Source of the DNA: a virus
Virus record (IMG/VR): IMGVR_UViG_3300017964_000110
Span: 1 to 20,757 of that record
Length of the DNA stretch: 20,757 bases
Strand: one strand, 5' to 3'
Under the pieces are notes generated by a model, which ran no database searches, was not told where the DNA came from, and worked only from the letters and a program-made list of their open reading frames with translations. A program made the position numbers and the translations under genes. Below are positions 1,732-20,757 of this stretch, piece after piece (position 1 is the first letter of the stretch; each line of letters starts with the position of its first letter).

Positions 1732-2157
1732 ATGGCATACTCGGGTTCAACACAAATGACTAATTCCACTGCAAATAGTAGTGAAGATTCAGGATTTAAT
1801 CAGATCTATAAAGGGTTTTCAACGAGTGCTGGAAACAAGAGTAATATGCTATATGATATTGATGTAGTAAAACAAGATCTTATCAATCACTTTTATACCA
1901 GAAAAGGCGAAAGAGTTATGAATCCTGAATTTGGTTCAATTGTGTGGGATCTATTATATGAACCACTTGATGAAAGTGCAGAAGAAGATTTAATTGAGGA
2001 TTGTAGTAGAATTGTAAATGAAGATCCAAGATGTGAATTAATAGACATTCGTTTAGATTCGTTGGGCAACGGTATAAGAATTGATATCAGTATTAACGTT
2101 TTACCATTTAATAAACAAGCAGTAATGCAATTGGATTTTGAAAGAGAAACATTATAA
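1732..2157 (+). CDS. 25: gp25-like baseplate wedge subunit
   Basis: The 141-residue product matches the gp25 / GPW family of phage baseplate wedge proteins. The core begins near residue 40 with DVVKQDLINHFYTRKGERVM, followed by the family hallmark GER-x3-P-x-FG (residues 58-67) and a WDLLYEPLDE helix. The C-terminal strands include IRIDISINVLPFN. Length is close to T4 gp25 (132 residues); the extra residues are a Ser/Thr/Asn-rich N-terminal tail of about 40 residues. In contractile-tail phages gp25 sits in the inner baseplate next to gp6 and bears a sheath-like handshake domain that seeds sheath assembly. The ATG is preceded by AAGGATAAGGA. Its TAA stop shares one base with the gene 6 ATG, so the two are probably translationally coupled. 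Confidence 0.93.
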   Translation: MAYSGSTQMTNSTANSSEDSGFNQIYKGFSTSAGNKSNMLYDIDVVKQDLINHFYTRKGERVMNPEFGSIVWDLLYEPLDESAEEDLIEDCSRIVNEDPRCELIDIRLDSLGNGIRIDISINVLPFNKQAVMQLDFERETL

Positions 2158-5651: not shown

Positions 5652-8600
5652 ATGGCTAAGGTAAGTTCAAAGTTACCAGAGTTTTTACAGAATCCAAAAC
5701 TGAAAAACTTTTTTGATGGCACAGTAGAACAAGCATTTTCAAAAGCCGACAATGAAAAAGTTACTGAATGGATTGGTAGAAAATACGGCACATATTATAA
5801 TCCTTTCAAAGATAATTACAAGCCCGAAGATAACAGCTTAAGAAAGAATTATCAATTAGAAACCACAGCCACATTAAAAAATCCTGACAATCTACTAACG
5901 TCAGATTCTATATTTTTTAACGAAGCTCTTGATTACATAGTAAATGAAAATGGAAAAATTAATAATCAAAATAGATTGTTTGGTCAAGAATATTATACAT
6001 ATTCTCCACCTATTGATTATGATAAATTTTTAAATTACGAAAACTATTATTGGTATCCAAGTTTAGATACTGGTGTTCCGAGTGTTGTTGTTTCAGGAAC
6101 TACTGAAACATTTACAGCAACAAACAGCCAAGATTTCACATTAGAATATCCTATATCAAGTAACGATGAAGTAAAAGTTAACGGAACACTGATTTCAACG
6201 TATACATCAACCGGATTAAATTTAACTATAAGTAGTCCAACTTTATCCGCAGGCGATAACATTTCTGTATTACATAAAATCGATCCAGATGATATCGTTG
6301 GTTTAAAAATTTATACATCACCAAACGGAATTACGTTCACATCAGGTTTATTAATTGAGTTTTCATCAAACTATCTTTCAAATTCAAGTTATGCAAACAA
6401 AAGATATTTTGTTGAAGGTGTTAATAGCAAAAATGGTATTGAATTTGTTGAAACCAGTGACGAAACTGAATTATTTTTAGATGAAGAGTTTCTTCCATGG
6501 GATCCGGCTGAAGATCAAGGAACAACATCAACAACAGATGGATTTGATTCAAATAGATGGGATACTGTTCCTTCAATTCAAAATCCTGACTATATTACAA
6601 TTGAAAGAGGTTGTACTGACAAAAATCCATGGTCTCGAACTAACGGTTGGGTACACAAAGATGTTATTACAGCATATAAAAACTTTCAAGAAGAAGTAAC
6701 CGTATATCATCCTTTTGATAGTGTTACAAGTTCTATCAGTGGTTGGGACGATGGTTACTGGGATAGCACAACTGAATTTCAACCTTCAATATTTCAATTA
6801 GATATTAGCAGAAAAGGTAGAAGACCTATTATCGAATTCAAAAAAGATATAAAACTTTATAACTACGGAGAAAAACACACACAAACAGTTGACGTGTTGT
6901 CTATAGAAGACACAATTGATGATATAACAGGAGAAGCAAGTTATAGAATTGATGATATTGAATTACGCGATGGTATGAAAATATTGTTTATTAATTCAAA
7001 CTTTGAAACAACACTAACACCATGGGATGGTGATAGTTATCCATGGGACCATGACAGTGATAATAATCCTTTAACGCCAGTTGAAGATGATGGCGACATT
7101 ACAACAACGTCAGGACTAACAGGCGGTGACGTTGGTTGGGATATCTCCGGTACCGACTTTGATGTTTCAAGTTCAATATGGCAAGTGTCAGGAGTAGGCT
7201 CATCTATAACACTTACAAAAGTACCCAGCGTTACTATTGATGATTATAGTTTAGTGACTATTAGACTTGGTGCAGTGAACGCCGGCAGAGAATACTACTG
7301 GACAGGATATGCATGGCAAGTATCACAACAGAAAACTTCTTTAAATCAATCACCATTGTTTGCATTATATGATAGTAACGGCAAGTCATTAGACGATTCA
7401 ATTACATATCCATTATCAACTTTTGTTGGTAATAAAATATTTGGCTATAAAATAGGCACAGGCGCCACTGATTCTGTATTAGGATTTGCACCTTATTATG
7501 TAGGATATAATTCGGTTAGTAACTACCAATTTGAAAACTTTTTAAACACTGATTCTAGTATAAATGGATTCAAGTATTATAAACAATTTGATTATAAAAA
7601 TATTTTAAAAGATACAATTGAATATGATCTAGTAATTAATCCAGACTATACATCTTCTGCTAACAAAGTTTATATAGAAAATATAAAACAGCAAACATTA
7701 AATTTACAAAGAGGAAATTCTTATAAATTATTATTAAATGACAGTTCGTTTAGTTCAAACGGGTTTTCAAAAACATATCATCCTGTATTGATAAGTTTAA
7801 CAGACGACGGAGTACACAACTCGGGCACAGTTTATAATACCGGTGTAAAATATTATCTTGATAATGTTGAAGTAACAGAAACGGTTTTTAAATCTAGTTC
7901 TTTTAACACAGCCAAAAAAAGATACATCGAAATTAATCCTACAGCATCAACTCCTGACACATTATATTATTTCTGTAATACACATCCTGGCATGGGAGGA
8001 AAAATAAGTTTATTAGATAATCCTTATTCTACTGTTGCTGAAAAAACAGAAACAAATTATTTTAACGAATGGAGATCAGTTGAAACAAAATCAAAACAAA
8101 AATTAATTCAAGAATTTGAAACTGACGAATATTCTATCAAAAATAATTTTAAACTTGATACTATTGTAGCAAGTGATCAGTCCGTGCAAGTATATGTTAA
8201 CAACAAACTGGTATCAAACTATACAATTAATTTTGGGCAGTTTATTAAATTTAATAGTGATTTAGAAAATCATCAACATATTTTAATAAAGTATGATACA
8301 AATGATGTTGATACAATACTAACATCAGCCTATCACGAAGTGCCAAAAAACTTGTCTAATAACTCACAAAACAAAGATGTAGTTAGTTACAGTTATAGTA
8401 ATTTCTTAGATCATTTTGCTTCTGGTATACAAAATCAGCATAATCTTGTAGGACTTGCACTAGGTAATAACACATATCGAGACACTAGAAAAGATTTAAA
8501 TTTATCTACTGAAATTTTACAACACAATGCACCGTTACTAAAATTTATGACCCATGTTAACAGTGATGACAGAAATATTGTCAAGTCTGTTAGATATGCA

Positions 8601-11600
8601 CAAAGCGAATATGTAAGATTCAAAAATAAATTTCTTCAGACACTAGAAGCAGTTGATAGAGAAAACGACACTGGAACATGGTCCGGTAAACAGCTTGTTG
8701 ATGCCACACTAAAGAAAATGAATACCAATAAAAAACTAATCAACAATTGGTCATATAGTTTAATGCTGTCATATGGCGAAACAGGAAAACGTACCACAAT
8801 TACTATTGATTCTACAAATAAAACATGGAACAATGATACATCAACTGTAACGCAGAACTATCAAGAAATTTTAAATCTTGTAGGTGCACCTGGATTAGAG
8901 TTAGATGTTAGTTATAATCCAGTAACTGATAAAGACATTAAATCTTTATATGTTTACAAGAATAATGTAATTCAATTAATGAACGTTGATTATGTTATAG
9001 ACAATTCCGCCGGTACAAAAATTGTGTTTATTGGTGCTGATAAACCTGTTATAGGAGATAAAATTCAAGTTGATTATTTTGATGTAAAACAACCTGCGTG
9101 GATTCCAGCAACACCATCAAAATTAGGAATAAGTCAAGTGTTTATTCCACAAGAAATATCTGATACATCATATTCTGCAGGATCGCAAACATTTATTCAA
9201 GGACATGATGGTTCGTTGACTTTAAAATACAACAACTTTAAAGATACAGCACTATTAGAGTTAGAAAAAAGAATTTATAACGACATTGAAGTTAAATTTA
9301 TTGATCCAGATTATGTTCCTTTATTATCTTACGATCATGTCTTTGGAAATTATTTTAATAAAAAAGATTACAATTACGAAGAATTTGTTCAAGCAATTCG
9401 ATCACATGCATATGATTGGGGTGTAAAAAATGAAGTAGAAATGAGATTAAACAAAACGTATGATTCAACTGATTGGAAAACATGGAATTATTCTTCTGTA
9501 AAAAATATTTCAAACGATCCTACTCCGGGACATTGGAGAGGTATATTTAAAAAGTTTTACGGTACGCACAGACCACATTCACACCCATGGGAAATGTTAG
9601 GATTTAGCATTAAACCAAACTGGTGGGATGACACATATTCATGGACTGATGTTGATAAAAGAAATAGTTTAATTAATGATATTGAACAAGGTATTATCAA
9701 ACTTGGTAGTCGAAGAAATAATTTAAAAAATGAGTATGCTGATAAATCTAATGTTTATAGACACGATGGGTTTACTAATTATGTTCCTGTTGATTTGCAA
9801 GGACAATTAAGAAGTCCAAAGGATATTGGATTGATTTCGGTTAATCCTGTTTCAACAGAAGCTAAAAAAGACTGGAAGCTAGGAGATCTATCACCAGCTG
9901 AATTGGCTTTTGTTATTGACAGTTCTTATGCGTTTGCTATGATGAATGTGATGCTTGTAAGCAAACCAGCTGAATTTTGTGAAACAATGTTTGACACACT
10001 AAATGTCGATTTTGCTAACATAAACAAAAAACAAAAATTTTCAAAATTAACAAATAAAAGGTTAAACAACAATGTATATGTTCATAGAGAAATATCTACA
10101 GATAGCAAAGTAGTAGTTGGTTACGGATACAATCAATATGTTTCTGAAAGATTAATATCACAGACTAAAAATGTTTTAAATTTATATGGTGGTATTATTA
10201 GAAATGTAAATCCACAGTTGGGTATTAAACAAGCATCTTATATAGATTTTGATTCATACAGAGTACAAGCAGAATCATATTCACCAACATCGTCAACTTC
10301 AAGTATTTTCTTACCAGATAACAACGTGACAACATTTGTACACACTAGCGAAGCTGTTGGTAAAACTGCATATTCTGGTGTTATCATTGAAAAAACAAGC
10401 AACGGTTATAAAGTGCATGGATATGATGCAGGTGCAAACTACTTTAATGTAACAGAAAGTGATATAAATGGGTTAAAAGCACCAGTTGTAGTTGGAGCAA
10501 AGCCAATTAATGTTCCAGCATATACACCAGGTAATAGTTTAACATCTGGAGATTATATCAAGTACGAAGGACAAATTTATAAAGCAGTTAAAGATCATAC
10601 AACCGGTGATAAATTTACACCAAGCAATTATCAATCTGTTGCAGAAGCGCCAACAGAGGGTGGAAAAAAAGTTACATATTATAGAAACGTTGTTAACGAT
10701 TCAATTAAAATAGTTGAATACGGAACTGAGTTTACATCAGAACAAGAAGTATTTGATTTTATGATTAACTGGGGAAGATACTTAGAAAATCAAGGTTGGA
10801 TATTTGATGTACAAAATAACAGAATTAGAGAAACATATGACTGGCTATACTCTGCAAAAGAATTTTTATTTTGGAGTCTAGGTGAATGGGCAGATGGCTC
10901 AGTACTAACATTATCACCTCTTGCATCTGAAGTTTCTTTTGAACCTAAAAAAGGTATTGTTGCTAATGTTGAAGATATTATCGGTAATAGCTATGCTATT
11001 CTTAATAGATCGGGTATGCCAATTGATGCCGCAACTACAACAGTGATTAGAGATGGTAGAAAAGTAACTATTACAGAAGACAACAATGATCCAATTTACT
11101 TTGTTAATTTGTTTACTAGAGAAATTGAACATGTTACTGTTTTTGACAATACTACATCATTTGGAGATGTAATTTACGAACCGGTACTTGCAATTAGACA
11201 ACCAAGATTAAAACAAACAGTTTTAAGATCAACAGGCTGGCTTGGTAAGTTAGAAGCAAACGGTCATTTAATTACTACAAGCGGTATTGTCAGTAACTTT
11301 GACACATCAGCAAAAGATATTCAAACATATCTTGATGTTGATTCAACTACAAACAATGATGAACTTAATAAAGCTGGGTTACACACAATTGGCTATCAGT
11401 CTAGAGATCACTTAGATAACTTAGAAATCATTGATGAAAATCAAGTTAGATTTTATCAAGGGTTTGTTAAACAAAAAGGTAGTAAAAATGCAATTGATAG
11501 ATTGTTAAGAAGCAACACAGTTCTAGACAATCAAGATATTAATATCTATGAATATTATGCTATTAAACTTTCAGACTTTGGTGGTAACGATATTAATCAA

Positions 11601-14600
11601 TCAATTGAAGTAAAACTCAGCGATGAAGAAATTAAAACCAATCCGCAAATAATCCAATTCTTACCTAAAAAAGATGATGTAGTTACAACCGATATAAAGA
11701 CCGATAACATTATTACAATAGATGTTGATGATAATACAAGATGGGTTAAAAAACCAAATGGCAATAAAAACTCTGAAGAACTTTTTGCAACAAGACCAGA
11801 GTCATTTGAAATGCCAACTGCTGGGTATGTACATTATAAAGATGTTAATGCAAGAGTGTTTACAAAAACAGACTTAGACAGTTATTATAAAAATAATCAT
11901 TTATCAGGAAGTATAAACGAAGGACATTTAGTATGGGTAGCAAAAGATAATTCAACAGAGTGGAATGTTTATAGATTCACAGAAGTCTCACAGGCCATTG
12001 AATCAGTAACTTCAACAGAACCGTTTACTGTTACATTATCAGAACCAACAAAATTATTAACAATACACGGTGATTCAACAAATTTAATTTTAGAAAAATC
12101 AAATATAGCCGATCAGAGTATCACAGCTGATACATACGGTGATAAAACACTGACACTAAATTTACAAGATCAATCTGTGTCAAAAACATTTGAATTTGCA
12201 AATGTTGGTGGTTCGGGTGCAGATGTTGTTGCCGGCAATGTTGCAGATCAAGTACTTGAAATGATAGTAACTACAGCAGGCTCAGGATATTCAGTTGGAG
12301 ACAGCGTTGAAGTTTCTGGATCGGGTGGATCATCTGCAACAGGTAATGTTACTGCAATTGATATGTCGGGTGGTATAACAAACATTGCCGTTGTATCAGG
12401 TGGCGCAAACTTCTTTGGCGAACCTGGTGATATATCAATTAAAACAGCCGGTGTTGATTCTGCCGGAGTAGGTGCTGTTATTAGATTTAAAGGTAATAAT
12501 CCTACGTATCAAATTAACACAACTTTATCTAGCTCAGCCACACCGTTTACAAAAGGAGAAACAATCACAGGTAGTGTTAGTGGAGTTTCTGCAACTATTA
12601 TAAATGTGTACACAGACGGAACAACTACAATTTTACATATTAACGGACATACTGCAACACCAGTTGCAACTGATGTGTTTACAGGCGGTACATCTGGCGC
12701 AGTATCAACAGGAACAAACACAATCACAGCAAGAAGCTTGGCATCTTATGGCGACTCAACATTTGGTGCATTACTTGATTTAGAAATTAACAATGGCGGC
12801 ACAGGATATCAAAGTCCAAGTATTCATGTTTCAGGTACAACACCAGCACAAGGTATACTTGAACAGACTTCCGGTGTAATTGATAAAGCATATATAACTG
12901 ACGGCGGTTCTGGATATAGATTACAATTTCCTGAAAAAGCAGATGTTGAAATCGCAATCAAAGATACAGTATTAAATGCAAACGTTGATTTTGCTGACAG
13001 TTTATTAAAATGTGATACAGTATCAAATGTTGTTGTTACAATTAATGAAGCATTTGACGGCACAGGTCCTACAATTAATTTAGGATCAACTGCAAATACT
13101 TCTTTACTAATTTCAACACAAAGTTTATCTGCAAATGCTACAGTAACTTCTTTTAATAGTAATATAACTGATAGATCAAACACAACATTAAGATTGAGCT
13201 TTAGTGCCACAAATGCAACAACAGGTAATGCTACAGTTACAGTTAATTACAAAAAAGCATTATACAATATTTCAGAACTTGATGGAAGTGCTACTACTAT
13301 AACAGCAAATGATTTATCAGGTGGTACACATGCTTTATATAAATGGAAAGATGTAAGACTTGCATCAAGAAACAACGGAGTTGATCAAAGCAATGTTGGT
13401 TCTAGTTTATCTGCAACTGTAAATGATTTTGTATCAAATGTTTGTTCTGATGTAACGTTTATTGATGGAGACAAAATTTTCTTAGACAATGGCGGCAACA
13501 ACAAATGGTATACAATGACTATGACCACAGATGCTTCTGTAAAAACAGCATACGACATTTTAGCAAGTAACAGCAACGTAGACTCAAGTATTACAATTGG
13601 TAGCAATTATTGGATTATTAATTCTGATGTTGACTATACAGCAACAACACCAAACCAAACACTGTTTAATACTACAAAAAGAATGCAACACACTCAAGTA
13701 AATTCAGCACTGTTAAACAGATCGAGAATTTATAACAACTATGAAGGTGACAACGAAGTTGATTTAGAAGTGTTTGATCCAATTAAAAATATCTACCCAG
13801 GTGTTGCAATGAGAGAATTATCTTATATAAGAAAAACAAATCCTGCGGTGTTTAGTAATACAGCAAACAACTCTATTAAAACAGCAAATGATTTAGATGT
13901 ATGGGGAGAAAATCAAGTAGGACAATTATGGTGGGATTTATCAACAGTAAGATACATTGAATATGAAAACTTTGATCAACAATATAGACTAAGACACTGG
14001 GGTTCGTTATTTCCAGAATCAACTATCGATGTGTATGAGTGGGTAAGCAGTACAAAAGCACCAAGCAGTTGGAGTTTAGACGGAACAGTTCAAAGTACAA
14101 CTGATTATGTTGTTGAAACTGAAACTGACAAGCAAGGCATTGAGCATACAACTTATTACTTCTGGGTTAAAGCCAGAACTGAAATTCCTGCGAACCATCA
14201 ACGAAATATTTCAGCATTGTCAGTACAAAGATTACTAAAAAATCCTACTTCTCAAGGATTAAGTTGGTACGCACCAGTATCAACATCAAGCATATTAGTT
14301 TCAAACATTGCAAGGTTTATTTCAACCGAAAATAGTGTTTTAAGAGTTAATTATAAAATCAAAGATCTTGATGTGCCAATACACAAACAATGGTTATTGA
14401 TAAAAGAAAACGATCCTAATGCTTTAGTTCCTACTAGTGTATGGAATAAATTCACAGATTCATTATCAGGCCAAGATGCATCCGGTCTTGCTGTTCCTGA
14501 TACTACATTACATGAAAATATGAAGTATGGTAACACGGTTCGACCAAGACAAAGTTGGTTTAAAAATGTTCAAGAAGCAAGAAGAATATTTAGATACAAA

Positions 14601-16952
14601 GCTAATAACATTTTATCAAAAATTAATCTTGATCTTGAATATCCAAATTGGGATAGTAATATCAATACTAATACACTGTATGAAAAAGTTGACTTTTATT
14701 TAGATGGTTATAACAGTTCTTTAATTATCGATAGAATTGTCGACACAGCATCTGAAATTGACAAATCGGTTTTATCAAAAAATGAAGTTATTAAAGTAAA
14801 CATTGATAACAATTCTAAATGGGCCATTTACATTTACGGCAACAGAGAAAGTATTTTATCAGGTAATATTGATGTGGCAACAGATACAACAGAACAAGCA
14901 TCAACAGCCACAACAGGTGCATCAACCGGTAACATTTATTCTGCATCTTCACAGTCAACCCACTTAGATGATGAAGGTATAGATCCAGCTACATATGAAC
15001 TTGTAAGAGTTGCTACACAAACTAGCACAATGGAATTAAAACAAAACTTCTATTCAAGTACAGCAAGTGCAATAGAAATTAGAGAAATTATGAGCACATT
15101 GTATAATACAATATTACCTGGATCATATAAACAATCACTAAGTGAATTAATGTTTGAATGTATTAACTATGTGTTCACTGAACAAACAAACATTGATTGG
15201 ATTATCAAAACCAGTTATTTTGATGTTCTACAAAATGACAACAGTTTACAACAAAAAGTTTCGTATAAACCAGATACTTTTGATTTTGTAGAAAGTTATA
15301 TCAATGAAGTTAAACCATATCATGGTAAACTGCTAAACTTCTTATCTAAGAAAACAACAGCAATTGAAGAAGCTAATGTTGACATGGATGAATATTCAAT
15401 TAATATGAAAACCGATTTAGTATTTGATAGAGTTTCTAAAAACATTGAAGTATTAAGTTCCGGTACACCAGCTGAACAACTTGAAGCATTAAAAGCCAGA
15501 ACATCTTTAACAACTGTACCTGATGCATCAGCAATTGACAGAATAGCAAAATATTATTTTGGAGAACAGTTGGCTTCGTTAATTACATCAAATCCTGATT
15601 CTGTTGATGCATTTATGAAACAATTACATAATATTGTTTCTCCATTTAACGACTTAGACCTTGACAGTACACCTTTTACAATTAATGAAGAAGGAAATAC
15701 TGTTGGTATTGACAAACACAGATTTGACAACGACATTGGTTGGGATTCAGATGTACAACAAACAATATACAGATCATTATTCCAAAGAAAAAATTTATGG
15801 CAATCTGGTATAGCATACACAACCACAATTAATACAAACAGTTCAGGTGTTATTACATCAAATAGTTATGTACAATACAATGACATATCACATTTTGCAA
15901 ACTGGAGTGTGTCAAACACTTATGCTGTTGACGATTTGGTTGTGTATGATGATAGACTTTATAAGTGTAATGTTGCACACAAAAATCTTGCAAGTGAAAC
16001 TACTTTCCAAAACAGTAGATGGGATTTAATTGAAGATTACGTTTACTTTACAGCAAAAGATCATACATCATCAAGTAGTTTTGCTACAGATTATAATAAT
16101 GGTAATTGGAGTTTGATTACAATTAGTTTTGATGGTGCTGGTTTTATTAGACCACAGCATGAAGATCATCCACAAGAAATGATACCAACAAAAGTAAAAG
16201 AAACATTAAGTATCACTGCTATAACTTACGAACAGATGGCCACAGATATTGATGACATTGATAACGATGGCAACGTTACCGAAAGTCACGGTTATGGTGA
16301 TCAATATGCATTTAGAATTTTTTATGGTCATGATGGTAGAACAAGCTATCAAAGATTACCAAAAATTGCAGAAACCACATTGACAGCAAATATTGATACA
16401 AACGTTTCTGAGATAACTGTTGCAGATGCTTCTGTGCTTTGGGACACATTGTCTGTTCCGGATCCAGATGATTCAAGTACAACTATTGGCACAATTGATG
16501 TTGTTCCAGCAGGTGCAGTTAATAAAAACAATCCAAGCAGAATATGGATTGGTGCAGAGCTGATCGAATTTACAGGAATTAGTGGAAATACATTAACAGG
16601 AATTAGAAGGGGTGTACTTGGTACTCCAATATATAATCATACAACAACTGATGTTGTACGTTCTGCTAGTGTACAACATAATATACCAAATGCATCAGCA
16701 TCAGCAAGATGGAGTGCATTTGATCCAGTTGGGACCAAATTAATTGATAAAACAGTACAAGCAACATGGGACGCAACTGCTTGGGATAATGACGACGCTC
16801 CATGGGATGTAGCAACACTTGATCCATCAGAACAAGCAGTGTTTATCAGAGCAGGTAGTATCAGTAACTTTAACTTATATAATACAACATACGTTAAACC
16901 AGGCTATGCAACACCACAATCTGGTTTAACAGGATACTTTAGTGAAGAATAG
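5652..16952 (+). CDS. giant multidomain baseplate/tail structural protein (3766 aa)
   Basis: This single uninterrupted gene fills over half the window. The N-terminus is conserved-looking (LPEFLQNPKLKNFF) and is followed by a Tyr/Trp-rich segment (QEYYTYSPPIDYDKFL). Later marks are Trp-Asp-rich stretches near residues 283, 457-462 and 3706-3720, and a cupredoxin-like module (about 655-790). A SHPWEMLGFSIKPNWWD block lies near residue 1314, and two short modules resembling CBM5/12 sugar-binding domains lie at about 1617-1665 and 3413-3462. GGxGY repeats span about 2204-2438, the block ESYINEVKPYHGKLLNF lies near residue 3216, and an ELIEFTGISG...LTGIRRGV element lies near residue 3635. I know such blocks from very large structural proteins of marine T4-like phages. 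Where T4 has separate genes 7, 8, 9 and 10, this phage has one, so a fused wedge/fibre-attachment role is inferred. GGGAG at 5637-5641 serves as ribosome binding site. No signal peptide or catalytic motif was found. Confidence 0.8.
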   Translation: MAKVSSKLPEFLQNPKLKNFFDGTVEQAFSKADNEKVTEWIGRKYGTYYNPFKDNYKPEDNSLRKNYQLETTATLKNPDNLLTSDSIFFNEALDYIVNENGKINNQNRLFGQEYYTYSPPIDYDKFLNYENYYWYPSLDTGVPSVVVSGTTETFTATNSQDFTLEYPISSNDEVKVNGTLISTYTSTGLNLTISSPTLSAGDNISVLHKIDPDDIVGLKIYTSPNGITFTSGLLIEFSSNYLSNSSYANKRYFVEGVNSKNGIEFVETSDETELFLDEEFLPWDPAEDQGTTSTTDGFDSNRWDTVPSIQNPDYITIERGCTDKNPWSRTNGWVHKDVITAYKNFQEEVTVYHPFDSVTSSISGWDDGYWDSTTEFQPSIFQLDISRKGRRPIIEFKKDIKLYNYGEKHTQTVDVLSIEDTIDDITGEASYRIDDIELRDGMKILFINSNFETTLTPWDGDSYPWDHDSDNNPLTPVEDDGDITTTSGLTGGDVGWDISGTDFDVSSSIWQVSGVGSSITLTKVPSVTIDDYSLVTIRLGAVNAGREYYWTGYAWQVSQQKTSLNQSPLFALYDSNGKSLDDSITYPLSTFVGNKIFGYKIGTGATDSVLGFAPYYVGYNSVSNYQFENFLNTDSSINGFKYYKQFDYKNILKDTIEYDLVINPDYTSSANKVYIENIKQQTLNLQRGNSYKLLLNDSSFSSNGFSKTYHPVLISLTDDGVHNSGTVYNTGVKYYLDNVEVTETVFKSSSFNTAKKRYIEINPTASTPDTLYYFCNTHPGMGGKISLLDNPYSTVAEKTETNYFNEWRSVETKSKQKLIQEFETDEYSIKNNFKLDTIVASDQSVQVYVNNKLVSNYTINFGQFIKFNSDLENHQHILIKYDTNDVDTILTSAYHEVPKNLSNNSQNKDVVSYSYSNFLDHFASGIQNQHNLVGLALGNNTYRDTRKDLNLSTEILQHNAPLLKFMTHVNSDDRNIVKSVRYAQSEYVRFKNKFLQTLEAVDRENDTGTWSGKQLVDATLKKMNTNKKLINNWSYSLMLSYGETGKRTTITIDSTNKTWNNDTSTVTQNYQEILNLVGAPGLELDVSYNPVTDKDIKSLYVYKNNVIQLMNVDYVIDNSAGTKIVFIGADKPVIGDKIQVDYFDVKQPAWIPATPSKLGISQVFIPQEISDTSYSAGSQTFIQGHDGSLTLKYNNFKDTALLELEKRIYNDIEVKFIDPDYVPLLSYDHVFGNYFNKKDYNYEEFVQAIRSHAYDWGVKNEVEMRLNKTYDSTDWKTWNYSSVKNISNDPTPGHWRGIFKKFYGTHRPHSHPWEMLGFSIKPNWWDDTYSWTDVDKRNSLINDIEQGIIKLGSRRNNLKNEYADKSNVYRHDGFTNYVPVDLQGQLRSPKDIGLISVNPVSTEAKKDWKLGDLSPAELAFVIDSSYAFAMMNVMLVSKPAEFCETMFDTLNVDFANINKKQKFSKLTNKRLNNNVYVHREISTDSKVVVGYGYNQYVSERLISQTKNVLNLYGGIIRNVNPQLGIKQASYIDFDSYRVQAESYSPTSSTSSIFLPDNNVTTFVHTSEAVGKTAYSGVIIEKTSNGYKVHGYDAGANYFNVTESDINGLKAPVVVGAKPINVPAYTPGNSLTSGDYIKYEGQIYKAVKDHTTGDKFTPSNYQSVAEAPTEGGKKVTYYRNVVNDSIKIVEYGTEFTSEQEVFDFMINWGRYLENQGWIFDVQNNRIRETYDWLYSAKEFLFWSLGEWADGSVLTLSPLASEVSFEPKKGIVANVEDIIGNSYAILNRSGMPIDAATTTVIRDGRKVTITEDNNDPIYFVNLFTREIEHVTVFDNTTSFGDVIYEPVLAIRQPRLKQTVLRSTGWLGKLEANGHLITTSGIVSNFDTSAKDIQTYLDVDSTTNNDELNKAGLHTIGYQSRDHLDNLEIIDENQVRFYQGFVKQKGSKNAIDRLLRSNTVLDNQDINIYEYYAIKLSDFGGNDINQSIEVKLSDEEIKTNPQIIQFLPKKDDVVTTDIKTDNIITIDVDDNTRWVKKPNGNKNSEELFATRPESFEMPTAGYVHYKDVNARVFTKTDLDSYYKNNHLSGSINEGHLVWVAKDNSTEWNVYRFTEVSQAIESVTSTEPFTVTLSEPTKLLTIHGDSTNLILEKSNIADQSITADTYGDKTLTLNLQDQSVSKTFEFANVGGSGADVVAGNVADQVLEMIVTTAGSGYSVGDSVEVSGSGGSSATGNVTAIDMSGGITNIAVVSGGANFFGEPGDISIKTAGVDSAGVGAVIRFKGNNPTYQINTTLSSSATPFTKGETITGSVSGVSATIINVYTDGTTTILHINGHTATPVATDVFTGGTSGAVSTGTNTITARSLASYGDSTFGALLDLEINNGGTGYQSPSIHVSGTTPAQGILEQTSGVIDKAYITDGGSGYRLQFPEKADVEIAIKDTVLNANVDFADSLLKCDTVSNVVVTINEAFDGTGPTINLGSTANTSLLISTQSLSANATVTSFNSNITDRSNTTLRLSFSATNATTGNATVTVNYKKALYNISELDGSATTITANDLSGGTHALYKWKDVRLASRNNGVDQSNVGSSLSATVNDFVSNVCSDVTFIDGDKIFLDNGGNNKWYTMTMTTDASVKTAYDILASNSNVDSSITIGSNYWIINSDVDYTATTPNQTLFNTTKRMQHTQVNSALLNRSRIYNNYEGDNEVDLEVFDPIKNIYPGVAMRELSYIRKTNPAVFSNTANNSIKTANDLDVWGENQVGQLWWDLSTVRYIEYENFDQQYRLRHWGSLFPESTIDVYEWVSSTKAPSSWSLDGTVQSTTDYVVETETDKQGIEHTTYYFWVKARTEIPANHQRNISALSVQRLLKNPTSQGLSWYAPVSTSSILVSNIARFISTENSVLRVNYKIKDLDVPIHKQWLLIKENDPNALVPTSVWNKFTDSLSGQDASGLAVPDTTLHENMKYGNTVRPRQSWFKNVQEARRIFRYKANNILSKINLDLEYPNWDSNINTNTLYEKVDFYLDGYNSSLIIDRIVDTASEIDKSVLSKNEVIKVNIDNNSKWAIYIYGNRESILSGNIDVATDTTEQASTATTGASTGNIYSASSQSTHLDDEGIDPATYELVRVATQTSTMELKQNFYSSTASAIEIREIMSTLYNTILPGSYKQSLSELMFECINYVFTEQTNIDWIIKTSYFDVLQNDNSLQQKVSYKPDTFDFVESYINEVKPYHGKLLNFLSKKTTAIEEANVDMDEYSINMKTDLVFDRVSKNIEVLSSGTPAEQLEALKARTSLTTVPDASAIDRIAKYYFGEQLASLITSNPDSVDAFMKQLHNIVSPFNDLDLDSTPFTINEEGNTVGIDKHRFDNDIGWDSDVQQTIYRSLFQRKNLWQSGIAYTTTINTNSSGVITSNSYVQYNDISHFANWSVSNTYAVDDLVVYDDRLYKCNVAHKNLASETTFQNSRWDLIEDYVYFTAKDHTSSSSFATDYNNGNWSLITISFDGAGFIRPQHEDHPQEMIPTKVKETLSITAITYEQMATDIDDIDNDGNVTESHGYGDQYAFRIFYGHDGRTSYQRLPKIAETTLTANIDTNVSEITVADASVLWDTLSVPDPDDSSTTIGTIDVVPAGAVNKNNPSRIWIGAELIEFTGISGNTLTGIRRGVLGTPIYNHTTTDVVRSASVQHNIPNASASARWSAFDPVGTKLIDKTVQATWDATAWDNDDAPWDVATLDPSEQAVFIRAGSISNFNLYNTTYVKPGYATPQSGLTGYFSEE
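7614..8021 (+). other. cupredoxin-like module inside the giant protein
   Basis: About residues 655-790 of the 3766-residue protein form a beta-rich module ending in LYYFCNTHPGMGGKI. The spacing C775-x2-H778-x2-M781, together with an upstream His710 in TYHPVLIS, reproduces the four ligands of a type 1 copper site (His, Cys, His, Met). The DGVHNSGTVYNTGV stretch between them is one I associate with related modules in marine phage structural proteins. Metal binding is inferred from the motif only. The module could also be a stable structural fold that keeps the ligands. Confidence 0.65.
10500..10646 (+). other. CBM5/12-like module 1 in the giant protein
   Basis: About residues 1617-1665 show the pattern of small chitin/cellulose-binding modules: AYTPG..LTSGDYIKYEGQ, then IYKAV.DH and a closing hydrophobic strand. 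The Y-x-x-GD-x-(I/V)-x-Y-x-G-x-x-(Y)-x-(A/C) core is recognisable, but the usual final Trp is not evident. Such modules in tail proteins may touch surface glycans. The call is tentative. Confidence 0.4.
12262..12966 (+). repeat. GGxGY repeat region in the giant protein
   Basis: About residues 2204-2438 contain four degenerate copies of a unit that starts with a strand and a glycine turn: TTAGSGYSVGD, VSGGANFFGEP, NNGGTGYQSPS and TDGGSGYRLQF. Each is followed by a short strand. Between them lies a paired unit, KGETITGSVSGVSATI and TDVFTGGTSGAVSTG. The region is poor in Cys and aromatic residues and rich in Gly, Ser and Thr, which suits an elongated beta-structured spacer. The copies are diverged at the DNA level, so they are old. 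Confidence 0.6.
15885..16040 (+). other. CBM5/12-like module 2 in the giant protein
   Basis: About residues 3413-3462 read FANWSVSNTYAVDDLVVYDD, then RLYKCNVAHKN and finally SRWDLIED. This follows the W-x-x-x-x-x-Y-x-x-x-D-x-V-x-Y-x-x-x-x-Y-x-C-x-x-x-H...W pattern of CBM5/12-type carbohydrate-binding modules better than the copy near residue 1640. Both flanking Trp residues are present. It lies in the C-terminal sixth of the protein, which may be exposed on the baseplate rim. The sugar-binding role is inferred. Confidence 0.55.
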
Positions 16953-16966: not shown

Positions 16967-18313
16967 ATGGCGCTAGGAAATATTAAATTAAGAGCAACAT
17001 CGGCAAATGTTACCACTCAGATTAATGGCATAACTGCTATATCTTCTAGTCAAGTAACAAATGCTCCGTTGACTCACGAACAATTAGACTTAAACTTTTT
17101 AGAATTAGCAAATTCTATAGTGAATTTGTCATCTGCTGAAGGTATAACTCTTGCAAATCAAACAACAACTGATTTAACAGAAGGCACAAACTTATACTAC
17201 ACAGATGCCAGAGTAGATTCAAGAGTAGCCAATATTGCAGTTTCAAATATTGGTGCTAATGCTGTCAATGATACACATATTGATTTTGGTACAGGTGCCA
17301 ATCAAGTGTCAACAGCAGACATACCAGAAGAAACTAATTTATACTACACAGATACAAGAGTTGACAACAGAATTAGTCAAGCATCAATAAATGATTTATC
17401 AGATGTGGTTGCAACTTCTCCATCCAATGGAGATATTTTAAAATATGTAACAGCAAATTTAAGATTTGAATTGTCAGCTGATACAAACACTACAGATATC
17501 AGTGCAAACACAATAAATCAACTTTCAGATGTAGACACAACCGGCGTAACAACAAATTCAATTTTAAAATACAATGGTGCAAATTGGGTAGTATCAACTG
17601 ACATAGATACCACAGATTTATCTGCAAACACAACAACTGATTTGACAGAAGGTACAAACTTATACTACACAGATGCTAGAGTAGATGCCAGAGTTGCAAA
17701 CATAGAAGTATCAAATATTGCCATAGATGCAGTTGGCAATACACATCTTGACTTTGCAAATATATCTGTAACTAGTTTTGCTGACATTGGTGATTATGTC
17801 ACAACAACAATGACTGCAAACTTAGATGCAAACGCATATAGTATACTAAACGCAGGCAACGTAGAAGCTGTGGCTTTCAATGCCAATGCAGATTCAACTA
17901 GTCAAGTTTCCACATTCACAAGAGATCAAGAATCAACTGGAACTACAGTAAGAACATTGAACATCAGAGCACAGTCAAGTATAGACATGACAGACGGTTA
18001 TGGTGGTTCACTGGGATTCAAAATCAAAGACGACACAGCAGAAGAAGACATTGGTTCAATCAGTATTGCCAGAGATGGTGCTGACAACACTGGTAAGTTT
18101 ATTTTAACTTTGGTTGATACCGGTACATATACCGAAGTATTAACAGTAAAATCAGACGGTTTAACAGCATTTACTGGTGCAGTACAACTAGCAAGTATGA
18201 CAACAACACAGCGTGATGCAATTAGTTCACCTACTGCTGGAATGATGATTTACAACACCACAGTTAATAAACACCAAGGATATAATGGTACTACATGGAA
18301 TGATTTCTATTAA
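16967..18313 (+). CDS. tail-fibre-like protein with LYYTDARV repeats
   Basis: The 448-residue product is built from repeats. It has three copies of the (T)EGTNLYYTDARVD unit (residues 67-108, 119-136 and 223-263) and two tandem copies of an LSDV...ILKY...SANT unit (141-182 and 183-222). A glycine/aspartate-rich strand region follows (about 320-400), and the C-terminal tip RDAISSPTAGMMIYNTT runs into a YNGTTW motif. Such repeats and tips are typical of fibre and adaptor proteins of marine phages and prophages, usually trimeric and beta-rich. No intramolecular chaperone domain is visible. The start is 14 bases after the giant gene. No convincing ribosome binding site precedes it; the nearest is AGGA, 12 bases away. 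It is probably part of the host-recognition apparatus attached to the baseplate. Confidence 0.8.
   Translation: MALGNIKLRATSANVTTQINGITAISSSQVTNAPLTHEQLDLNFLELANSIVNLSSAEGITLANQTTTDLTEGTNLYYTDARVDSRVANIAVSNIGANAVNDTHIDFGTGANQVSTADIPEETNLYYTDTRVDNRISQASINDLSDVVATSPSNGDILKYVTANLRFELSADTNTTDISANTINQLSDVDTTGVTTNSILKYNGANWVVSTDIDTTDLSANTTTDLTEGTNLYYTDARVDARVANIEVSNIAIDAVGNTHLDFANISVTSFADIGDYVTTTMTANLDANAYSILNAGNVEAVAFNANADSTSQVSTFTRDQESTGTTVRTLNIRAQSSIDMTDGYGGSLGFKIKDDTAEEDIGSISIARDGADNTGKFILTLVDTGTYTEVLTVKSDGLTAFTGAVQLASMTTTQRDAISSPTAGMMIYNTTVNKHQGYNGTTWNDFY
17165..17755 (+). repeat. mosaic repeat block in the fibre gene
   Basis: Units run almost back to back: LYYTD copy 1 at 17165-17290, a short copy 2 at 17321-17374, LSDV/ILKY copy 1 at 17387-17512, LSDV/ILKY copy 2 at 17513-17632, and LYYTD copy 3 at 17633-17755. 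Copies 1 and 3 of the LYYTD unit share long stretches of identical DNA, including TTATACTACACAGATGC, which points to a fairly recent duplication or gene-conversion event. Confidence 0.8.
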
Positions 18314-18366
18314 ATCAATGAAAACTAGTAAAAGTAAATTAATTAAGGTTAAATATAGTTTTAATC

Positions 18367-18396
18367 TTGACAATAAATAGAATTATAGGGTATAAT
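18367..18396 (+). promoter_or_regulatory. consensus TTGACA/TATAAT pair overlapping a late promoter octamer
   Basis: A perfect TTGACA (18367-18372) and a perfect TATAAT (18391-18396) are 18 bases apart. The late-type octamer AATAAATA (18372-18379) lies inside this span. The octamer ends 23 bases before the ATG at 18403, leaving room for a short leader. Transcription from the TATAAT would begin at about the ATG itself. Either or both could be used, and the octamer is favoured for a structural gene. Confidence 0.5.
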
Positions 18397-18402
18397 AAAG
18401 AT

Positions 18403-19047
18403 ATGCAAAACACAGAAAAACCAAATGAAACAGGCACAGTAAAAGTTCAAGGTCATGTGTTAATCACAGACAAACAAACTGGAGAAGTGCTTGTGGACAA
18501 GAAAAACGCAATTCACCATGGAAACATGGCATTTGTTATTGCGGCGGCCTTGTCACATCATACACTAAATGACTCAGGTATATATCATATGGGATTTGGT
18601 AATGGTGGTTCTGATGTGCTATCTACTGGTGCTATTAAGTATAAAAGCACCAACACTGGCTCTACAAAAGACAATTCTGCTGATTTATACAACCGAACAT
18701 ATCAAAAGGTTGTAGCAAAACCATCAGCTACAACGTCAGTACAGAGCGGTGACCCAAGCAACAATATTGAAGTAATAGCATCAACTGGTGCTTATACTGA
18801 TTTAAAAGTAAAATGTTTACTTGACTTTGGAGAACCCACAGGTCAAGATGCAACTGATAATGCAATAACTGATACCAGTTATGTGTTTGATGAGCTTGGT
18901 TTGTTTGCGTACTATCAAAATACTGCTAGTGGTACAATTGACATTGATCAGAGTTTAATGCTGTCACATGTTATTTTCCACCCAGTACAAAAGAGTACAA
19001 ATAGACAAATTGAGATTATTTACACAGTTAGAGTGCAAATGCAGTAA
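18403..19047 (+). CDS. probable phage structural (tail/fibre-associated) protein
   Basis: The start is placed at ATG 18403 (MQNTEKPNETG), giving 214 residues. A longer reading from TTG at 18367 is rejected because that codon is part of the promoter. The N-terminal block VKVQGHVLITDKQTGEVLVD followed by KKNAIHHGNMAFVIAAAL, then a YHMGFGNGG segment, are features I associate with structural proteins of marine T4-like phages. The exact role is not known to me. A YVFDELGLFAYYQ segment near residue 170 and a C-terminal strand IEIIYTVRVQMQ suggest a beta-sandwich. The block is flanked by fibre genes, so a fibre connector or a baseplate-fibre adaptor is likely. No signal peptide or membrane segment. 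The ribosome binding site is weak (AAAG close to the ATG, or GGG 12 bases away). Confidence 0.75.
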   Translation: MQNTEKPNETGTVKVQGHVLITDKQTGEVLVDKKNAIHHGNMAFVIAAALSHHTLNDSGIYHMGFGNGGSDVLSTGAIKYKSTNTGSTKDNSADLYNRTYQKVVAKPSATTSVQSGDPSNNIEVIASTGAYTDLKVKCLLDFGEPTGQDATDNAITDTSYVFDELGLFAYYQNTASGTIDIDQSLMLSHVIFHPVQKSTNRQIEIIYTVRVQMQ

Positions 19048-19051
19048 TGAA

Positions 19052-19059
19052 AATAAATA
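19052..19059 (+). promoter_or_regulatory. putative late promoter of the 433-residue fibre gene
   Basis: AATAAATA begins 5 bases after the stop of the preceding gene and ends 18 bases before the ATG at 19078. A clear ribosome binding site, AGGAG (19064-19068), lies between them. Spacing is nearly the same as at gene 25. Confidence 0.6.
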
Positions 19060-19077
19060 CGTTAGGAGCAATATATA

Positions 19078-20379
19078 ATGTCATACACAATTAATAACAG
19101 TAGAGGTTCTGTAGTAACAACAGTTACCCCTGGTACAACCCAGGTTGTTGGTGGCATTACCCTAATTGGTAAAAACTACACAGGATACGGTGAATTAATT
19201 GCTGAAGACTTGGTCAAAATGTTGGAAAATCAAGCCAACACTACCAATCCAAGCTCACCCTTGGAAGGCCAGTTATGGTATGACACTACAGAAAATATTC
19301 TAAAAGTATACGATACAAATTGGCAGAGACTACAAGTAACAGTAGGTACATCTGCACCATCATCACCAACAGCAGGTACAATGTGGTTAGACACATCCGG
19401 CGATGGTGTATTCAAAGTTTATGATGGTAGTTCTTTTGTAGCGACAGCAATGGCGTCGTCAAAAACAAGAAGTACCGCAGTAACAGTAAAAGTTGGCAAT
19501 AACACATGGGCCACAACAGCTAGACAAAATGGCTTTACATCAAATTCAAATGCTGAAGTTGATTTAACGGCTATCGTAGCAACAGACGGTTCAGGTAATG
19601 AAGAAGTAGTAGCACTATTTTCTCCAGCATCGTTTGATATTAGTAATCAAACAGATGGCATTGCTAACTCATCAACACTAGCATATGATATCTATAACAA
19701 CTTCTCTGTAACAACAGCAGGTGCAGGATCAAATTCTTTACAAGCTGGTTTGAACATCAGAGACGGGTTTTTAGATCCGGCGGCAACAGCGCCGTTGGCC
19801 GATGAAGCATTAAGTGTTCAAGATGCATCAAATTCATCAGTAGCATATGACAGTGATTCAATTTTAATTTTAACAAAATCTACAGCTCAAGAGCATGTTG
19901 GCGATATTAGACCATCAGCTAACAACACTGTAAACTTAGGTTCAACAACAAATAGATACGCAACTATATACGGTGTATCTACATCAGCACAATATGGTGA
20001 TATTGCGGAAAGATATCATGCTGATGTACCAATGGAACCAGGTATGGTTGTTGCTCTAGGAGGTGCTGAGGAAATTACTCGCACAGCCGAAAGAGCTGAT
20101 GAAAACGTATTCGGAGTCATCTCAACTTCACCAGCATTTAGAATGAATGATGTTGAACAAGATGATGCAGAATATCCTTTTGTTGCATTTTCCGGGAGGG
20201 TTCCTTGTTTAGTCAAAGGACCGGTAGCAAAAGGTGAGAGGTTGGTAAGCAGTGACATTCCAGGAGTTGCTGTTGCGGCCAGCCACACAGACAGTTGGAA
20301 ATCTATCATTGGTAGATCACTAACTGACAAAACTTCAGACGAGGTCGAAAAAATAACTATTGCAATAGGAGTAAAATAA
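19078..20379 (+). CDS. tail-fibre-like protein with conserved C-terminal domain
   Basis: The 433-residue product has a head of about 60 residues (ITLIGKNYTGYGELIAED) that recurs in marine phage fibre proteins. Two copies of a G-x-x-W-x-DT...KVYD module follow (about residues 58-82 and 92-118). After a Ser/Thr/Asn-rich shaft, NTVNLGSTTNRYATIYG (about 285-301) leads into a C-terminal domain starting at QYGDIAERYHAD (about 304-315) and running to the end. That last domain, with EPGMVVALGG and a VFGVISTSPAF motif, recurs at fibre C-termini. It may be related to the self-cleaving peptidase G2 type of fibre chaperones; I cannot confirm a catalytic residue. The gene has its own AGGAG ribosome binding site and late-type promoter octamer and follows the 214-residue gene by 30 bases. 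Confidence 0.82.
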   Translation: MSYTINNSRGSVVTTVTPGTTQVVGGITLIGKNYTGYGELIAEDLVKMLENQANTTNPSSPLEGQLWYDTTENILKVYDTNWQRLQVTVGTSAPSSPTAGTMWLDTSGDGVFKVYDGSSFVATAMASSKTRSTAVTVKVGNNTWATTARQNGFTSNSNAEVDLTAIVATDGSGNEEVVALFSPASFDISNQTDGIANSSTLAYDIYNNFSVTTAGAGSNSLQAGLNIRDGFLDPAATAPLADEALSVQDASNSSVAYDSDSILILTKSTAQEHVGDIRPSANNTVNLGSTTNRYATIYGVSTSAQYGDIAERYHADVPMEPGMVVALGGAEEITRTAERADENVFGVISTSPAFRMNDVEQDDAEYPFVAFSGRVPCLVKGPVAKGERLVSSDIPGVAVAASHTDSWKSIIGRSLTDKTSDEVEKITIAIGVK

Positions 20380-20380
20380 A

Positions 20381-20757
20381 ATGGCTTATCAACAAGGTGA
20401 TACAATTACTGCTAATGATTATAATACATTCATTGGCGATATTAATACGGTCATCGGTACTGGTAGCGGAGACTCTGGTTATGGCTTAACTGAAATTTCA
20501 ACTGTGGCGCAAGGAGCAACAATATCTGCGGCACAATGGAATTCATTACTTTCTGGTTTACAGAAAGCGGCTAATCACCAAGGATCAACTATTACCAATG
20601 CATCAAACACAGTAAGCACAGGCGGTAATATATTACCACTTTCAAACCTGGCTACTGATATTACAACAATTTCAACTAACAGATTAACAGCGGCAGGCGG
20701 AAACTTATCAACAGGCATTACAGGAACTTCTTCAACAAGAACAACTGCATGGACTGG
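20381..20757 (+). CDS. phage structural protein, cut by window end
   Basis: An open frame starts one base after the preceding stop and is still open at the window end after 125 codons. The ribosome binding site AGGAG (20368-20372) lies 8 bases before the ATG, inside the end of the upstream gene. The N-terminus MAYQQGDTITANDYNTFIGD and the later ISAAQWNSLLSGLQKAANHQ stretch resemble the head of structural proteins found among tail-fibre genes of marine phages. The rest is Thr/Ser/Asn-rich, consistent with a fibre shaft or a decoration protein. Tight spacing implies it is in one transcript with the 433-residue gene. Function beyond structural is not known. Confidence 0.75.
   Translation, partial: MAYQQGDTITANDYNTFIGDINTVIGTGSGDSGYGLTEISTVAQGATISAAQWNSLLSGLQKAANHQGSTITNASNTVSTGGNILPLSNLATDITTISTNRLTAAGGNLSTGITGTSSTRTTAWT

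Follow-up and report, generated by a model that had tools for sequence, protein, structure and literature searches.

We analyzed a 20,757-base virus fragment (IMG/VR record IMGVR_UViG_3300017964_000110; hereafter the window, to which the genes seen here are limited), in which one very large gene stands directly behind two genes of the baseplate wedge (Table 1). This giant frame opens with an ATG three bases past the stop of a gp6-like gene, runs for 3766 amino acids (aa) free of internal stops, and follows the order gp25, gp6-like gene, giant. The gp25 protein was matched by PF04965 (32.6 bits, cut-off 27.2) as well as by phrog_43, the gp6-like protein by phrog_10646 and phrog_219, and the giant by phrog_10938, a family annotated as "virion structural protein", at 1238.5 bits, with residues 534-3056 as the best of four matching stretches. 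The score and the conserved family blocks described below confirm that the giant is a real and intact gene, far from chance. A previous sequence-only reading of this DNA had pointed to a single very large frame directly after gp25 and gp6, as these matches corroborate, and had explained it by fusion of T4 gp7, gp8, gp9 and gp10 together with insertion of surface modules, of which only the insertion has held up.

Table 1. Genes and protein features of the window; residue numbers are those of the giant protein.
Feature	Positions	Strand	Evidence
gp25 baseplate wedge protein	1732..2157	+	PF04965, phrog_43
gp6-like baseplate wedge protein, 1163 aa	2157..5648	+	phrog_10646, phrog_219
Giant gp7-slot virion protein, 3766 aa	5652..16952	+	phrog_10938; virion mass spectrometry in relatives
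Conserved N-terminal block, residues 1-145	5652..6086	+	Family alignment blocks
Cupredoxin-fold module, residues 653-793	7608..8030	+	Fold search, ligands, insertion; predicted ligands His710, Cys775, His778, Met781
Conserved central scaffold, residues 1150-2100	9099..11951	+	Family blocks, model
CBM5/12-like sugar-binding module 1, residues 1619-1664	10506..10643	+	Profile and fold
FYQGFxxQKGT-type motif, residues 1934-1953	11451..11510	+	Resembles gp7 KGT motif, resemblance only
GSGY/GGxGY region, residues 2194-2424	12231..12923	+	Weakly like cyanophage tail protein repeats
Conserved C-terminal scaffold blocks, residues 2700-3300	13749..15551	+	Family blocks
CBM5/12-like sugar-binding module 2, residues 3417-3445	15900..15986	+	Pfam profile
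phrog_11259 protein	18367..19047	+	Downstream of giant in 28/30 contigs

A single giant gene in this slot is an already known arrangement that is ordinary for its clade, and the family, PHROG 10938, has no assigned function. The order gp25-gp6-giant occurs in eight of nine named jumbo phages, namely PA5oct, Atu_ph07, PBECO4, GAP32, RaK2, Phosso, Vibrio phage 2.275.O and CBB, with the homology of all three genes checked for each; the giants of PA5oct and Atu_ph07 measure 3857 and 4449 aa. Among metagenomic contigs holding the giant's start (73, distinct by a 600-base signature), a gp6-like gene lies directly upstream in 69, and gp25 precedes the gp6-like gene in 61 of 62. Searches with tblastn returned 57 phage records for a C-terminal query and 95 for an N-terminal query, the listed cyanophage matches falling on or beside the cupredoxin module, while IMG/VR yielded 38 loci with the N-terminal query and, in the central alignment, at least 581 relatives among at least 599 stretches, on contigs of up to 518 kb.

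Conserved blocks recur across the family. Eight of them follow one another in a single order (N1, N2, N3, N4, C1, C2, T1, T2), and in 117 of the 120 loci with any conserved block they lie in order within one frame, with all eight present in 80 of these (counts are of loci or open-frame records, some being overlapping stretches of one contig). The remaining three, L015 and L061 from one near-identical contig and L035 from a more distant one, are frame-broken, with the giant split into at least two frames, whether by misassembly or by genuine mutation. Across 40 complete giant frames, the stop-to-stop length ranges from 936 to 4799 aa; the frames of 936 and 2241 aa are frame-broken copies, and the next shortest has 2434 aa. 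In the PHROG search, phrog_10938 alone was matched by every one of the 43 members of the segment around the KGT-type motif and of the 48 of the central segment, other families matching one to five members, including phrog_708 (expectation value, E, of 2.7e-6) and phrog_701, the family of the cyanophage giants (E 5e-6), with 1/48 each. Viral models searched with Foldseek yielded 22 rows at E <= 0.001, most of which share 22-37% identity (two share 11-13%) and few of which are named proteins; these predicted structures, an Atu_ph07 structural protein among them, look like the giant's own family.

Others have shown that relatives of the giant are present in virions. The record of PA5oct gp355, the giant of that phage, notes electrospray tandem mass spectrometry, and CBB_236, whose identity as the giant was checked by sequence, is listed with 21 and 7.72, next to the gp6 protein CBB_237 with 13 and 12.47 (PMC5259590), figures that, in the part of the source available, appear to be peptides and percent coverage. 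In phAPEC6, gp245 (381.9 kDa, 17 unique peptides) adjoins the wedge protein gp244 (PMC7247149, available in part), and its position and size suggest that it is the orthologue of the giant. For Atu_ph07, 131 virion proteins are reported and gp181 and gp182 are among the baseplate proteins; the portion of that text examined held no role for gp180 (PMC6102473). Likewise, no description of the giant was found in the examined portions of the phiKp24 cryo-electron microscopy article (PMC9700779) or the PA5oct biofilm article (PMC6950013). The virion proteomics proposed as a check by the sequence-only reading are on hand for relatives, in the parts of these sources covered, and place the giant in the particle in PA5oct, in CBB and, if the orthology is right, in phAPEC6.

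Several sequence features described in that reading were recovered. The giant contains 16 Trp-Asp pairs, whereas 300 shuffled versions averaged 5.07 and never exceeded 14, and two sugar-binding modules, both CBM5/12-like. Module 2 scores 27.9 bits, over the Pfam cut-off of 26.2, and module 1 (residues 1622-1660 of the profile match) reaches 24.8 bits, just under it, backed by its fold (best Z 7.7, root-mean-square deviation 1.2 over 45 aligned residues, to a chain of a Milano phage baseplate entry) and by a match of the segment profile to chitin deacetylases (E 8.8e-5). A chitin-binding type-3 module is annotated in the giant of PAC2 as well. The GGxGY repeats are thin, with GGxGY at residues 2382 and 2418 (two sites, against a shuffled mean of 0.07 and maximum of 2, again in 300 shuffles), GSGY at 2210, and no more than these three sites. 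As a side observation, the gp6-like protein of Vibrio phage 2.275.O (L010:8589-12452) is annotated with a CBM5/12 module, and sugar-binding modules may have been inserted into gp6 too.

The claim of a cupredoxin-like module was likewise borne out, by fold search of a predicted model covering residues 1-805 (54 sequences, mean predicted local distance difference test score, pLDDT, 79.9; predicted template modelling score, pTM, 0.74). Foldseek matched this model to rusticyanin at E 3.6e-5 and to a pseudoazurin with an amicyanin loop at E 7.1e-4, the nine chains at E <= 0.001 being eight of rusticyanin and one of pseudoazurin, and a second fold comparison over the module gave a best Z of 10.1 (deviation 2.7 A, 103 aligned residues). 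As modelled, the module has the cupredoxin fold. The predicted type-1 copper ligand set is complete in the window, with the spacing Cys-x2-His-x2-Met, which we take to be that of amicyanin, and all four ligands occur in 14 of 18 aligned copies. Among 39 distinct copies, 21 have all four, nine show Cys-His-Met while their first His falls beyond the aligned part, two are without Met, and seven, two of them with a gap at this place, are missing the Cys-His pair and keep at most one ligand.

Comparison of giants with and without the module shows that it is an insertion, placed at different joints in different giants. In records that carry it, blocks N3 and N4 are 289-319 residues apart in 29 of 33 cases and 543 apart in the other four, versus 118-193 residues in 50 of the 54 non-carrier records and 259-335 in the other four; in five relatives (L096, L104, L114, L122, L125) the module lies between N1 and N2 instead. 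The module also occurs in cyanophage wedge proteins, in a gp9-type connector and in PSS2. A tblastn search with it returned 113 phage records, of which 109 are named cyanophages or Synechococcus or Prochlorococcus phages and two are Pelagibacter phages, and a DNA pattern encoding Tyr-Tyr-Tyr-Cys-x2-His-x2-Met was found in at least 120 stretches. All 122 distinct pattern matches among those listed are recognized by the module profile (E < 0.01), a result partly helped by the fact that the pattern motif belongs to that profile, and 106 of them have an upstream His-Pro. A set of 64 module copies was picked by this pattern and filtered for His-Pro and redundancy, so the invariance of ligands within it is partly by construction. 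The 32 aligned copies are matched by nine PHROG families, of which two are annotated as wedge and two as tail fibre proteins, one each as gp9-type connector, major tail and virion structural protein, and two are of unknown function.

Links of the module to known copper proteins are, at the level of sequence, weak. Pfam Copper-bind (PF00127) matches 8 of the 32 copies with a best E of 0.022, and the window copy itself fell short of the cut-off for this plastocyanin/azurin family and was unlisted at E <= 1. PF25489 (At5g54830-like) matches most copies in one set (15/18) and 10/32 in the other (best E 1.9e-6), and CBM_4_9 matches 4/32 (best E 4.3e-4). Profile matches in the PDB were led by antibodies, which share Tyr-Tyr-Cys, with plastocyanin behind them at E 0.34-0.58, and the smaller alignment found no copper protein.

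These results bear on whether the module binds metal. We tentatively suggest that marine phages commonly carry a mobile type-1 copper cupredoxin module, with a complete His-Cys-His-Met site, in wedge proteins, gp9-type connectors and tail fibres, and that it may have a metal or redox function in the tail, such as attachment to the cell surface that depends on copper, or a trigger that responds to redox conditions; we would not yet call this probable. The copper site, if real, could lend the module stability, attach it by way of the metal to a surface ligand, or act as a redox sensor. Alternatively, the module may be a purely structural beta-barrel whose ligand-like residues bind no metal, an explanation that we take seriously while placing it somewhat below even. 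It would account for the seven distinct copies that lack the Cys-His pair and for the faint Copper-bind match, which PF25489 and CBM_4_9 equal or surpass for some copies; but all four ligands are found together in 21 of 39 copies and one at most in the seven without the pair, the Cys-His-Met motif is accompanied by the upstream His-Pro in most listed copies (106/122), and the fold resembles that of blue copper proteins. Our search, which is provisional in that most subscription papers lay outside it, found, one listed Roseobacter genome paper aside, no description of a cupredoxin or blue-copper module in a phage baseplate, virion or tail fibre. If copper is bound, the tails of many marine phages have a metal site that we did not find described, and we regard the module as the larger point of this study, the giant gene itself being a further member of a known family without assigned function.

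The origin of the giant by fusion of several wedge genes is a separate question, on which our data depart from the sequence-only reading. Comparison by hhalign of the giant family with T4 gp6, gp7, gp8, gp9, gp10 and gp11 and with cyanophage wedge proteins gave nothing beyond matches of the cupredoxin module and, weakly, of the GSGY region to cyanophage proteins. For gp8 and gp10 domains the probability was at most 1.4% with the whole protein and 7.1% with one segment. The comparison has limited sensitivity, in that T4 gp6 reached only 57% probability (E 1e-4) against the neighboring jumbo gp6, and very old relationships may therefore escape it. Structure gave a mixed result: the segment-wise prediction and fold search proposed in that reading recovered the cupredoxin and CBM folds, but left the wedge scaffold fold unmatched in the two modelled segments, about half of the protein. 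The model of residues 1145-2110 (48 sequences, mean pLDDT 78.7, pTM 0.60; pLDDT about 31-53 around the KGT-type motif) had a best Foldseek E of 0.028 against the PDB, no chain at E <= 0.001, and only its CBM-like stretch standing out. Neither list contained a gp8 or gp10 fold; since each was filled by the cupredoxin or the CBM module, the missing wedge folds are no evidence against such folds.

Gene content was compared in 15 relatives and three T4-type controls (T4, F86 and Syn9) for the homologues of gp7, gp8 and gp10 that, on the sequence-only reading, should not occur elsewhere in the same genome. This expectation held in part, with gp9- or gp10-type genes in 3/15 relatives and profile matches to gp7 and gp8 in none. 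In detail, gp8 (PF09215) was found in 0/15 relatives and in all three controls, weakly in Syn9; gp9/10_N (PF07880) exceeded its cut-off in two relatives (G003 and G004), barely (25.3-25.4 against 25 bits), fell below it in three more, and was found in 3/3 controls; and gp10_C (PF21939) was found in PA5oct alone among the relatives, where its gene is distinct from the giant and lies downstream of it, and in 2/3 controls (not Syn9). The separate gp10_C gene and the marginal gp9/10_N genes indicate that gp9- or gp10-type proteins are encoded apart from the giant in PA5oct at least, and perhaps in two further relatives. PF09684 (P2 gpI) matched 0/18 records including T4 itself, which makes this null uninformative.

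In T4, each wedge is built from a single gp7, a pair of gp8 and three copies each of gp9 and gp10. Given these unequal numbers, one chain without internal repeats could not supply the T4 wedge proteins. An actual joining of gp7 to any or all of gp8, gp9 and gp10, with modules inserted besides, would explain why the giant is much larger than T4 gp7 and why gp8 went undetected in 15/15 relatives though it was found in T4, F86 and, weakly, Syn9. Against it stand the copy numbers, the lack of any gp8-gp11 profile match to the giant, the colinear single-frame blocks of 117 loci (the three exceptions among the 120 being frame-broken), the separate gp10_C of PA5oct with the marginal genes of G003 and G004, and the cyanophage giants described next; a fusion of gp7-gp10 is not supported, and we consider it very unlikely. 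The giant probably corresponds to a single T4 protein in enlarged form and not to a fusion of several.

Which protein this would be is suggested by cyanophages. Syn9 and Syn33 encode giants of 6076 and 6376 aa directly after gp25-gp6 (L058:10763-28993 and L059:10720-29850), and their gp9-type and gp8 genes are separate and lie further on. The cyanophage giant holds the KGT motif of T4 gp7 (hhalign E 4.4e-6 over 34 columns; phrog_964 at E 9e-6), and phrog_17744 matches T4 gp7, F86 gp7 and the Syn9 giant, by which sequence evidence the Syn9/Syn33 giant is probably the gp7 equivalent of cyanophages. In the available part of a comparison of 26 T4-like genomes, gp7 belongs to the non-cyanophage core gene set (PMC3037559). 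Some cyanophage records give the name "gp7 baseplate wedge initiator" to the gene at the cupredoxin match; in Syn33 this match is in Syn33_094, outside the giant. Two apparent links of the window family to gp7 were set aside: its own FYQGFxxQKGT-type motif is a resemblance without profile support as a homologue of the gp7 motif, and a 95% hhalign match to the Syn9 giant was lost with a deeper alignment and is taken as chance.

Position, exclusion and the cyanophage comparison lead us to infer that the jumbo giant is the putative gp7 equivalent, although no profile links its own family to gp7. Our favored reading, held with moderate confidence, is that the giant is a large baseplate-wedge scaffold of a jumbo, distantly T4-related myovirus, occupying the gp7 slot, with loops enlarged by inserted modules, and that it probably grips the gp6 ring as a clamp and extends outward. 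Synteny, the virion data for relatives and the module evidence agree with the earlier view that the wedge locus encodes a very large virion protein with inserted modules. The giant would take over from gp7 in clamping the gp6 ring, with about one copy in each wedge, and its inserted modules (the two CBM5/12-like modules, the glycine-tyrosine stretch and the cupredoxin) would face the host and help in adsorption or in holding the tail on the cell surface.

A number of observations weigh against this scaffold reading. The giant's own family reaches a probability of at most 0.3% against gp7 in hhalign; phrog_964 and phrog_17744 each match 0/15 relatives, the former matching 3/3 T4-type controls and also one cellular control genome; a profile of T4 and cyanophage gp7 found nothing better than E 0.77 in the jumbo loci; no wedge scaffold fold was matched by the models of residues 1-805 and 1145-2110; in SCTP-2, the ninth named jumbo phage, the gp6-like gene lies about 92 kb from the giant; and gp6 was not seen directly upstream in 4/73 contigs. 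It is conceivable, though in our judgment rather unlikely, that the gp7 slot was taken by a peripheral baseplate protein or one that anchors fibres, with gp7 function residing in another, unrecognized gene. The giant's lack of gp7 profile similarity fits such a replacement, and unassigned virion proteins near gp53 and gp5 (phrog_12050 and phrog_11190, with no Pfam family above cut-off) could be considered for the role, but the slot directly after gp6 in 69/73 contigs and the gp7 signature borne by the cyanophage giant in the same slot speak for the giant itself. As a wedge scaffold in the gp7 slot, this jumbo-phage virion protein of roughly 400 kDa acquires a role that can be tested.

Neighboring genes complete the locus. 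The phrog_11259 gene, of a conserved family of about 200 aa and unknown function that is a candidate wedge partner, lies downstream of the giant in 28 of 30 contigs, no more than 161 bases away in 24 of these; in the window a 448-aa frame stands in between. Other genes downstream (16967-20757) resemble proteins of tail-fibre or tail-spike ends (phrog_697, phrog_22593 and phrog_19602, with End_tail_spike below cut-off). On the opposite strand, beside the baseplate genes, lies a gene (1067-1627, -) whose product is by eye like a ClpP-type protease.

The giant can be compared with several known systems. With T4 gp7 (phrog_964) it shares the slot after gp6, whereas T4 gp7 has 1032 aa and sequence similarity between the two is undetectable. 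With PHROG 10938 members (PA5oct gp355, CBB_236, GAP32_230, RaK2 gp465, Atu_ph07 gp180) it shares both family and slot, and its clade differs from the nine named jumbo phages in the cupredoxin insert between N3 and N4, the module having been found in none of their loci. The cyanophage giant (Syn9 gp101, Syn33_092; phrog_701) resembles it in slot, in a length of several thousand residues and in GSGY repeats, but bears a gp7 motif that the window family is without by profile, and cyanophages keep gp8 and gp9-type genes. Rusticyanin and the pseudoazurin with an amicyanin loop are alike in fold to the cupredoxin module, at about 16% identity to rusticyanin, but are soluble cellular copper proteins, in contrast to a module inside a tail protein. 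The cyanophage wedge proteins of phrog_708 (Syn9 gp103, Syn33_094) and the gp9-type connector of phrog_677 have the module in common with the window giant while being different proteins; Syn9 gp103 contains two copies, and the copper ligands are lost in one of these and in the aligned Syn33 copy.

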